Part shown: piece by piece, positions 2,867 to 55,643 of the stretch
Layout: each line of letters begins with the position of its first letter
Numbering within the stretch: the stretch's first letter is position 1
Assembly (NCBI RefSeq): GCF_009497775.1
Contig: NZ_CP031012.1
Coordinates: forward strand, 1,488,001 to 1,552,000
Length of the DNA stretch: 64,000 nucleotides
Reading direction: 5' to 3'
Origin: Alcaligenes faecalis
Lineage (GTDB): Bacteria; Pseudomonadota; Gammaproteobacteria; Burkholderiales; Burkholderiaceae_B
Translations under genes and position numbers: made by a program
The notes under the pieces: generated by a model
Told to the model about the DNA's origin: nothing
What the model saw: the letters and a program-made list of their open reading frames with translations, nothing else
Databases searched by the model: none

Positions 2867-2901
2867 GCCTTTGGCCTGTTTGCCGTTTGTTTGAAGATGA
2901 G

Positions 2902-2941
2902 ACCGCCTCAGTTTCTTTTGGGAATTGGGGCGGTTTTGTTT
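2902..2941 (+). terminator. probable rho-independent terminator after tsdA
   Basis: ACCGCC at 2902-2907 pairs with GGCGGT at 2929-2934, and TTTTGTTTT follows. The loop is long (21 bases), so the call is moderate. It would end the ccoNO-cytochrome-tsdA transcript. Confidence 0.5.
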
Positions 2942-2945
2942 TGGG

Positions 2946-2989
2946 CTTCTTCTTCTTCTTCTTCTTCTTCTTCTTCTTCGTCTTCTTCG
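2946..2989. repeat. CTT/TTC trinucleotide microsatellite
   Basis: Eleven uninterrupted CTT units (2946-2979) are followed by an interrupted GTCTTCTTCG tail. The strand is pure pyrimidine with a GAA-repeat purine complement. No convincing gene covers it: the frames through it encode only poly-Phe or poly-Ser and have no family features. It sits between the tsdA terminator and the large palindromes. Confidence 0.9.
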
Positions 2990-3095
2990 TTTTTGGCCCT
3001 TGTAGAGCGGAGCTGTACCCGAAGCAGGAGGCTGGCGAAAGAAGGAGACAAGGAGTGCAGAGAGGCTGCATGTTTGAATAGTGCCTCGTGATAAC

Positions 3096-3328
3096 GCCGG
3101 TCTGGGCCGGGGGCCGTCCTCCGGGCTTGGCTCCTTGCCGGTGCTGCGCACCGGTACCCTGGTCAGGCTTGCTATTCGGGCGCGTCCTGAACTCGCGAAA
3201 GTGCCTTGTCCCCCGGACAAGGCACAAGCATTTCGCTCAAACAGCAGGACGCTTGAACCCCGAATAGCAAGCCCGCCTGCGGCAAGAAGCCTGAATCGCC
3301 CAGAGGACGGCCCCCGGCCCAGACCGGC
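3096..3328. repeat. large nested palindromic element, copy 1
   Basis: The outer arms are a perfect 25-base inverted repeat (3096-3120 with 3304-3328). Nested inside are 15-base arms (3166-3180 with 3259-3273), GCGTCCTG/CAGGACGC (3182-3189 with 3245-3252), GCGAAA/TTTCGC (3195-3200 with 3231-3236) and an apical 11-base stem, GTGCCTTGTCC/GGACAAGGCAC (3201-3211 with 3215-3225). A side hairpin CCGGTGC-TGC-GCACCGG lies at 3138-3154. Copy 2 at 3403-3631 has the same architecture in the opposite orientation. No gene is visible inside. Confidence 0.9.
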
Positions 3329-3402
3329 TCACAATGACTATAAATATGCGGCCTTTTTCCTTCTTGCGGCAGAAGGATTGTCTTTGTAAATAATCGCTGA
3401 GA

Positions 3403-3631
3403 GCTGTTTCGGTCCTGTTGGGGTGTTGGGGCGATTCAGAGTACTGGCCGCAGGCGAGGGCTCAATCGGGGGTGCAAGCATCCTGCTGTTTGAGCACGAC
3501 GCTTATGGTTTGTCCGGGGGACAAACCATCGTGCGAGTTCAGGATGCGCCCCGATTGAGTCCTCGACAAGGGGACCGGTGCGCAGCGCCGGCCAGTGCTC
3601 AGCCCCGACACCCCAACAGGACCGAAACAGC
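3403..3631. repeat. large nested palindromic element, copy 2 (inverted relative to copy 1)
   Basis: The outer arms are 30 bases with one mismatch (3403-3432 with 3602-3631). Middle arms are 3458-3471 with 3549-3562. Inner stems are GCATCCTG/CAGGATGC (3478-3485 with 3540-3547), GCACGA/TCGTGC (3494-3499 with 3529-3534) and TGGTTTGTCC/GGACAAACCA (3506-3515 with 3519-3528). Unpaired segments such as GGGCGATTCAG, GCCGCAGGCG, TGCTGTTTGAGC, GCGAGTTCAGGA and ACCGGTGCGCAGC are shared with the reverse complement of copy 1, while most paired arms differ in sequence yet still pair. Confidence 0.9.
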
Positions 3632-5840: not shown

Positions 5841-7322
5841 TCAAGGTTTTTTTGGTGCTTGATTGAGCTCACCCATGGCAAAGGCCAGGTTTACGGAGCC
5901 GACCAAACCTGCCGTGTGGGCCATGGTCTGGGCTTCTTGTGCTCCCAATAGACCGCTGTGGGCTTCGGTCAGCAAGGTCATGCCAGTCAAGCCTTCCTTG
6001 TAGGACTCCAGTGCACCTTGGTAAGTGATCTGCGCGGCTTCGACCAGGCTGCTGGCGGCTTGATGCGACTCCAGGGCGGCGCGTAGCGCGTCGGCGGCGA
6101 TGATCATTTGCTTGTAGGCATCCTGCTCGGTTTTGGCGACGCGCTCGCGTGCAGTGTCAGCACGTAGCTGGGCCTCACGTACTTGTTTGTTGCGTAGTCC
6201 GGCGTCGTAGAGCGGGATATTCAAGGCCAGCACGGCTCCTCGGGAGGAGGATTGCGGGCTGACTTCGGGCAGGCTGCCTACGCTTAACGAACCCAGCCGT
6301 TTGGAGATGAAGCCCATCAAGGCCAGCTTAGGCATGAAGCTGGCTTCTGCAGAGTCTATGCCGGCCAGACTGGCCTGGTGGGCTGCTTGCAGGGCCTGCA
6401 CATCGGGGCGTTGGGCGATGGCTTTTTTCAGTGTGTCGTTGCCCGGAATATCCAGGTCGTTGGGCAGGGGGCGGGTAGCGCTGTCCGCAACTTTCAGCTC
6501 CGTTTCGGGTGACAGGCCGATGGCGCCCAACAAGGTTTGGTAGGACTGGCGCGCCAGGGTACTGGCATTCACATGGTGTAGTCGGGCCTGGGCCTTCAGT
6601 TGCCTTGCCTGGGCGACTTCAATATGGGTGCCCAGTCCATTGCGTTGACGCTCCAGGGCGATGTTCTCGATAAGGGCGGCATTTTTCAGGCCCTGAGCGG
6701 AAATTTTTTCGCGCTGGCGGGCCGAGTTGTAGTTGAAGTAGCTGATGGATACTTCAGCAATGACAGCCTGATGTACCCCGCTAAAGGCAATGCGGCTGGC
6801 CATGGCCAGTTTGTCGGCCGCCTCTTGCAGGGCGGCGCGTTTGCCAAAGTCGAACAGCAGCCACTTCAAGGTCAGGGAAGGGACGGCACCACTTAAATGG
6901 GTGTCGTAGTCCACATCGACTTCTCTGCCCAGAATATTCACGCTGCTGTCGCGGTCGCTGCGCATATAGCCGCCCACCACGCTGGCGGAGATCAAGGGCA
7001 GGTAGGTGCTTTCTACCATACCGGCGGCTTCGGCTGCTTGTTGAGCCTCGCCCCAGGCAATGCGGGTGCTGGGGTTAAGGCGTTGGGCCAGGTCTATCAG
7101 TTCAGGCAGGCTGTATTCATGATTGGCCTGTACGCTGGGCGCAGGCTGGCTTTGATCAGGGCCGCTGTATTCGGCCAATGTCAGGCGGGGTGGTTCCGGC
7201 GCATCTTGCTCGGGCATGGGCTGGGCCATGGACTTGTGATCGGGCGCCGCGCAGGCGGCCAGCGTAAGGGCAGCCATCACAGCCAAAGTAAGACGCAATG
7301 CAGGAAAACAAGACATAGACAT
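5841..7322 (-). CDS. TolC-family outer-membrane efflux lipoprotein
   Basis: 493 residues. The N-terminus is a lipoprotein signal with lipobox LAAC. The rest has the two-fold alpha-helical repeat of outer-membrane factors, for example PELIDLAQRLNPSTRIAWGEA near the start and the second repeat at QRPDVQALQAAHQA. Such proteins form the trimeric outer-membrane and periplasmic channel of tripartite pumps. It starts just past the marC stop, so the two are likely cotranscribed. No adaptor or inner-membrane pump is adjacent. The MdtN/MdtO-like pair 4 kb away lacks its own outer-membrane partner, and this protein could serve it (inference). Confidence 0.87.
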   Translation of the reverse strand: MSMSCFPALRLTLAVMAALTLAACAAPDHKSMAQPMPEQDAPEPPRLTLAEYSGPDQSQPAPSVQANHEYSLPELIDLAQRLNPSTRIAWGEAQQAAEAAGMVESTYLPLISASVVGGYMRSDRDSSVNILGREVDVDYDTHLSGAVPSLTLKWLLFDFGKRAALQEAADKLAMASRIAFSGVHQAVIAEVSISYFNYNSARQREKISAQGLKNAALIENIALERQRNGLGTHIEVAQARQLKAQARLHHVNASTLARQSYQTLLGAIGLSPETELKVADSATRPLPNDLDIPGNDTLKKAIAQRPDVQALQAAHQASLAGIDSAEASFMPKLALMGFISKRLGSLSVGSLPEVSPQSSSRGAVLALNIPLYDAGLRNKQVREAQLRADTARERVAKTEQDAYKQMIIAADALRAALESHQAASSLVEAAQITYQGALESYKEGLTGMTLLTEAHSGLLGAQEAQTMAHTAGLVGSVNLAFAMGELNQAPKKP

Positions 7323-55525: not shown

Positions 55526-55643
55526 GGTCGGCAAATCTCCACAAGGCGGCCCGACCTTGCGTATGTATTTAACCTGCCTTGCTGCACGATGCCAGCAAAA
55601 CACCCTGCGCAATTATAGGGATTGAGCCTCTTTAAGGCAATCG

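Follow-up and report, generated by a model that had tools for sequence, protein, structure and literature searches.

The two giant palindromes near the start of the window (the whole 64,000-nt stretch analysed here) belong to a widespread interspersed family of bacterial hairpins with a clear target beside intrinsic terminators, and the family is absent from Rfam and from the literature searched. We judge it somewhat better than evenly probable that the element is a mobile hairpin, non-autonomous and directed to intrinsic terminators, which a putative enzyme moves in trans and whose arms are kept matched by template switching. The observations behind this reading are copy number and spread, the predicted fold, covariation, an asymmetry between the strands, the two places held by one unit, a locus found with and without the element (L036), and adjacency to terminators.

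The genome that carries the window (G000) has 4.16 Mb, and "plus strand" refers to the element as defined here. The first-pass annotation described two palindromes in inverted orientation, and both are present as inverted repeats with a fold z of about -14 (Table 1). It gave their outer arms as 25 and 30 bases; the second figure is right for B (30 nt, 3403-3432/3602-3631, 97% complementary) and the first is not right for A (31 nt, 3096-3126/3298-3328, also 97%). Inner arms lie at 3166-3180/3259-3273 in A and at 3455-3471/3549-3565 in B. The elements are mutually inverted and align in blocks of 96 and 63 nt at 78%, and the unpaired segments listed earlier as common to both fall mostly on invariant or near-invariant columns of the 29 copies described below. 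As RNA, A folds with a minimum free energy of -180.2 kcal/mol and B with -161.1, and none of 200 shuffles folded as low as either. The moving unit is longer than the palindrome, and a TTC microsatellite occupies the 3' end of the unit containing A (window about 2945-2990). The 3' end of this unit lies in or just past the TTC/GAA repeat and is therefore exact to some tens of bases, the match itself spanning 2959-3364. In other copies this 3' end is marked by a GAA run whose length varies. In G005 the full stretch at the window locus is matched at 89%; G002 and G006 have a shorter version, with the left part of A fused to the right part of B.

Table 1. Features of the head-to-head pair and its surroundings (window coordinates; G000 denotes chromosome coordinates)
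Feature	Position	Strand	Evidence or remark
Element A, giant hairpin (outer arms and structured core)	3096..3328	-	inverted repeats, fold z -14.5; blastn copy G000:1491134-1491301 minus
Core of A	3121..3302	-	covariance model R1, 192.9 bits (G000:1491121-1491302 minus)
Element B, giant hairpin	3403..3631	+	inverted repeats, fold z -14.0
Core of B	3428..3608	+	R1, 201.0 bits (G000:1491428-1491608 plus)
Mobile unit containing A	about 2944..3364	-	recurs at G000:388438-388846, 92% identity (375/409), other flanks
Predicted intrinsic terminator of upstream ORF 1778-2866	2901..2942	+	locus L052, laxer finder (T-run of 4 allowed)
T-tract TTTTGTTTT of predicted terminator	2934-2942	+	adjoins 3' end of unit A
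Spacer of head-to-head pair A(-) B(+)	3329..3402	.	between A and B

Use of element B as a blastn query returned 29 long copies in G000, B included, and three further short matches, two of which are B's own arms. A covariance model of the 181-nt core (R1) likewise gave 29 matches, each across the whole model. The proposal of a family of structured extragenic elements holds for 29 copies in one genome, and at A and B none of the 4227 Rfam families reaches its gathering cut-off, the window's single match above it being a riboswitch far from the elements (see below); with E up to 10, six sub-threshold matches occur at the elements, mostly to miRNA hairpin models such as MIR918. Within the genus, nine of the ten genomes, G000 included, carry 14 to 81 copies, and G003 has no R1 match. 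The covariance-model search that had been suggested for the Alcaligenaceae found matches in at least 68 of 250 genomes and at least 23 of 43 genera of the family; these counts are lower bounds, as at most ten candidates were scored per genome under stricter filters. At the level of the order, with six candidates scored per genome, matches occur in at least 4 of 399 genomes, namely G000, two others from its family, and G520, whose match is weak and partial. The last, L339 (E 2.2e-4), comes from another family of the order and is possibly a distant relative of the element.

Every named record that the pattern picked up and the model confirmed belongs to the Alcaligenaceae (Alcaligenes, Paralcaligenes, Parapusillimonas, Candidimonas, Pusillimonas, Allopusillimonas and others). 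In the genome collection, 69 of 72 pattern matches have an R1 match; L188 (Chlamydiae) and L198 and L216 (Dehalococcoidia) match the pattern without matching the covariance model and were taken as chance. A plasmid or phage origin was set aside, element B being unmatched in either collection (blastn, E 1e-5). The literature searched contained no recognised description of this family, and "undescribed" applies within that search; Bor-2 (see below) could be an earlier sighting. Copies are unevenly placed in G000, where 16 of 29 lie within 3.060-3.545 Mb, or 12% of the chromosome (P 2e-8, for a region picked post hoc). At L182, L208, L209, L219, L225 and L237 the model match stops where the contig ends, which suggests that assemblies tend to break at the element. 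In Parapusillimonas granuli (L168, about 6820-6970), the sequence past the 3' arm (GCGTCAAGAAACCAATAACGG...) is tandemly repeated with about 42 nt per unit.

The predicted fold is a giant hairpin that carries a GGG loop at its tip in most copies. Outward of the tip, stems are parted by conserved asymmetric loops (CTGTTTGA opposite GAGTT, then TGCAAG and GATTCA), a side hairpin with the loop GCA stands in the core between TGCAAG and GATTCA, and the outermost part is an arm of about 26 bp. It had been noted that paired arms differ between the two copies and still pair within each, and this extends to the family: the outer arms are 38% identical on average among 28 distinct G000 arms, and yet, counting Watson-Crick pairs alone, at least 18 of the 26 positions are paired in 81 of 82 distinct arms, and 24-26 positions in 72 of these. 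The 82 arms come from G000, G004, G007, G008 and three regions of G009; 105 of 111 rows were used for the arm counts, leaving out two repeats of the same copies and L115, L111, L124 and L129 (70-113 bits). In the core, 40 of 58 pairs are altered on both sides among 26 G000 copies, and 53 of 58 among 51 distinct cores from other genera. The statistical check of covariation, which had also been called for, gave a score of 0.728 in the other genera against 0.167 for shuffled and at most 0.110 for slid controls, and the observed scores were unmatched by any of 500 shuffles or by the slid controls.

Several comparisons bear out the earlier suggestion that the element is mobile. The unit with A (about 420 nt) is found again at a second place, 388 kb of G000, at 92% over 409 nt with different flanks, and both copies end, inside the GAA microsatellite, at the T-tracts of two different predicted terminators. 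L025 and L027 have 322 nt in common at 94% with different flanks; L025 and L026 have a duplicated right flank in common as well. Entire head-to-head pairs of G009 align over 666-691 nt at 85-89% at three places with different flanks. The search of relatives for empty sites was rewarded at L036, where the element follows the T7 run of a terminator, and G006 and G001 have the terminator without the element; this absence could in principle be a loss. At the same locus G007 has other DNA, about 850 nt, between matching flanks, and in G002 the core is gone and a short hairpin is left from the arms. An orthologous copy exists in at least one of three relatives for 27 of the 29 G000 copies, so that recent movement is visible for few. 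Single copies make up 19 of the 29, and close pairs stand in the (-,+) arrangement in 5 of 5 cases in G000 and 25 of 26 in G009. Other DNA lies within the element in G005: near the junction at 523 of L284, DNA with the ends TGGACGCCCC lies inside the hairpin tip, and four places (L284, L286, L287, L288) carry the same half element joined to TGGACGCCCC-ended DNA. This DNA is reminiscent of an IS110-family insertion.

Elements often adjoin the predicted transcription stop signals of genes. In G009, 36 ends were recognised from the terminal repeat, independently of what flanks them; 30 were examined, and in 26 of these the neighbouring 12 nt contain an A/T run of at least 5, compared to 2.0% of 5940 control windows. 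In G000, a strict terminator finder (T-run of 5) placed a terminator directed at the element 3' of it for 13 of the 29 copies and 5' of it for 3; where only one side had a terminator, this was the 3' side in 11 copies and the 5' side in 1 (P 0.006). With this finder, 16 of 29 copies lack a 3'-side terminator within 280 nt and 15 lack one on either side, A and B included. The strict finder misses 2901-2942; the laxer one, which allows a T-run of 4, sees terminators for A (L052) and for L055. Gene context, assigned with a simple ORF finder for 27 copies, is convergent in 14, codirectional in 12 and, doubtfully, divergent in 1; two copies are unclassified. Orientation relative to codirectional genes has no preference (5 same, 7 opposite). 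Single copies are oriented against the replication fork in 15 of 19 cases (P 0.019, with the terminus taken at half the genome); a replication-strand preference was set aside, as a preference for the terminator side gives the same bias if genes follow the fork.

The two strands of the element are not equivalent. Were only the duplex at work, G-T and A-C mismatches would be equivalent, each being the other read from the opposite strand. On the plus strand, the non-Watson-Crick core pairs of the genus comprise 150 G-U against 15 A-C (107 distinct rows), and those of other genera 70 against 8 (51 rows); arms aligned on Watson-Crick matches only have 51 against 7. Two pairs per alignment with fewer than 60% Watson-Crick cells were left out of the core counts, and the cells counted are not independent events. 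It is accordingly probable that the capacity to fold, whether as RNA or as single-stranded DNA, is maintained on the plus strand; mutational strand bias could account for part of the excess.

Orthologous copies give information on how the covariation arises. The set comprised 57 comparisons at 26 of the 29 loci with three relatives (G008, G004 and G007, which have 33, 27 and 29 copies, 20 regions being taken from each); five comparisons whose flanks lay 932-1887 nt apart were dropped, and L033, L044 and L059 gave none. Over the element, orthologues differ by 162 two-sided Watson-Crick changes, 90 one-sided breaks and 62 changes to G-U, and in the arms by 75, 19 and 16, respectively. Passage via G-U intermediates would leave mostly transitions among the double changes. 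The arms show otherwise, with 27 transitions and 37 transversions among distinct double changes against 245 and 175 in the flanks, a difference in transition share (Fisher P 0.02) opposite in direction to a transition bias. The lack of this bias points to one arm correcting the other in a single step, which yields covariation without selection on RNA, and much of the covariation probably arises in this way, by template switching in replication, besides selection on RNA. Such single-step templating of one hairpin arm by the other has been proposed for RNA hairpins, where 61.0% of the instantaneous compensatory changes belonged to the class able to pass through G-U (PMC8794818); the corresponding share in the present element is lower still, at 42%.

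The loops changed at 4.9% per site between orthologous copies, compared to 12.7% in the flanks, which suggests that the core is also constrained or is converted between copies; apparent module swaps are seen in L034/L109 and L032/L161. The first-pass annotation had taken arm differences that preserve pairing as the signature of a selected structure. That view is upheld in so far as strand-specific folding is supported (G-U over A-C), and weakened by double changes that lack a transition bias. Covariation alone was accordingly rejected as proof of RNA function, given the transversion-rich double changes in the arms. Covariation is widely read as proof of a functional RNA, and a case in which much of it may stem from replication is a needed yardstick. 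The family is a natural test of where covariation comes from, with dozens of loci per genome, most of them with orthologues in related species. The predictions are opposite, as templated correction leads to transversion-rich double changes and RNA selection to G-U intermediates, and both signals are present.

In the mechanism that we favour, a dispersed mobile element without a recognised gene would come to rest with its 3' end often at the T-tract of a predicted intrinsic terminator. The plus strand is likely the folded form, and a putative trans-acting enzyme, which may be supplied by another element or by the host, likely moves the element and would recognise this fold. The arms are likely kept complementary through template switching in DNA replication. 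Most resident copies are inherited in place, at gene 3' ends; they seem to exchange inner modules among themselves, and deletion sometimes removes the core. What recurs in G009 is the head-to-head pair, so that both outward 3' ends serve as terminal inverted repeats. No transposase or other mobilising enzyme was identified: Y1_Tnp is absent from the ten genomes of the genus, and the ISL3 elements present in G004 and G005 have different ends. Target-site duplication is ambiguous within A/T runs.

Among the alternatives, an ordinary IS-derived MITE is unlikely, though the least so. A DDE transposase would act on the short terminal repeats seen in G009 (GGTTCTTCGC...GCGAAGAACC), and the giant hairpins would be passengers. 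Terminal repeats do stand on both ends of the G009 composites, L301 has ATAAAAAA on either side, the arrangement expected of an 8-bp target duplication, and the short G009 units L301 and L310 have the ends without a model match. However, a passenger would not need the pairs and loops that are kept across the genera in which the core is recognised, the unit with A has no terminal inverted repeats, and no partner IS was found, ISL3 being the sole DDE family examined. As a parent, ISL3 was rejected on its ends, which read GGCTCTAC or GCTCTACC in G004 and G005, unlike those of the element. Among eight G009 composites, no single frame stays open across the unit in every one; the longest open stretches measure 118-147 aa, and a particular frame runs open for at least 111 aa in six of the eight. 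A recognisable gene was rejected, as two L289 frames had no Pfam match up to E 1; the open stretches leave room for coding capacity in these composites.

It is also unlikely, and a shade more so, that the copies are a structured RNA with a host function (e.g. a 3'-end stabiliser or a protein sponge) that spread long ago and whose fold is now under selection. The roughly tenfold excess of G-U over A-C on one strand, the slow change of the loops relative to the flanks, and the retention of most copies in place in at least one relative fit this reading, as does an A-rich patch which, in 49 distinct flanks, precedes a TGTGAG-like motif by 5-10 nt. Against it stand the unbiased orientation to codirectional genes, the lack of any copy in one genome of the same genus (G003), the two-sided changes without transition bias, and the flanks themselves: in 105 flanks, the mean sigma-70 score upstream (8.40) resembles that of shuffled sequence (8.51) and of the 3' side (8.11). 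This lack of sigma-70 enrichment in the 5' flank led us to reject a promoter-driven RNA gene, and the suggestion that the element is transcribed as RNA gained nothing from it.

A SINE-like retroelement, in which folded plus-strand RNA would be copied into DNA from the terminator T-tract by an in-trans reverse transcriptase and the arms would repair themselves, is improbable. It would explain the fixed 3' end, the orientation preference in G000, a unit A without terminal repeats, and the RNA-like excess of G-U; were it true, the palindrome would mimic RNA covariation through template-switch repair of its arms while drifting freely. Its difficulties are that no 5' truncation is seen, with whole-model matches for 29 of 29 copies in G000 and all 81 listed in G009 (one of 89 nt), and that L301 looks like a DNA-type target duplication. 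Mobilisation as a REP/REPIN system by a RAYT (Y1 transposase) is scarcely credible in spite of the head-to-head palindromes known for REPINs and the long vertical persistence, as Y1_Tnp (PF01797) is present in 0 of 10 genus genomes under a search whose control was positive in 5 of 14 reference genomes; it was ruled out for the genus, and a RAYT diverged below Pfam detection would revive it.

The terminator-directed mobile hairpin that we prefer has likenesses to several known systems. The earlier statement that it is not a recognised named family agrees with the absence of a REP RAYT from the genus, the different ends of ISL3, and Rfam matches below cut-off. REP/REPIN sequences are dispersed intergenic palindromes that occur in inverted pairs without a gene of their own, and the element is like them in its dispersed palindromes and, in part, in its inverted pairs (most G000 copies being single) and in having no recognised gene. 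Unlike REPs, which are given as 20-40 bp in the part of PMC3733652 covered here, it is much larger, with a branched core, arms that vary between copies, adjacency to terminator T-tracts, and no Y1 transposase. Alcaligenes faecalis is listed with 1,170 REP candidates in the covered part of PMC12306157.

ERIC and Correia elements are prokaryotic MITEs, and group IIC introns are linked to intrinsic terminators. The short units, the transcripts that would fold to long hairpins, and the G009 terminal repeats recall prokaryotic MITEs as described in part of PMC10969869. Unlike in MITEs, terminal inverted repeats are missing from the unit with A, entire arms vary from copy to copy, terminators are adjoined, internal loops are conserved across many genera, and no parent IS was found among the ISL3 elements examined. 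The insertion beside a DNA stem-loop, in G000 with a preferred orientation to it, is like that of group IIC introns (PMC10190682, in part).

Two repeats from related bacteria can be likened by description. Bor-2 of Bordetella bronchiseptica (Cozzuto 2008, PMC2267715) is an intergenic structured repeat of 167 nt with 17(6) members and may be an earlier sighting of this family; unlike the present analysis, its account has no mobility, target or covariation in the parts covered. The Beta-proteobacterial repeat element BRE (Hot 2011, PMC3110155), from Bordetella and other betaproteobacteria, is likewise repeated and thought mobile; in the covered part of its description it differs in being about 90 bp, often tandem, and found also in Comamonadaceae. 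No Rfam model of a group II intron matched in the window, nor below threshold at the elements. An nhaA-I riboswitch match lies at window positions 55540-55605 on the minus strand (45.6 bits).
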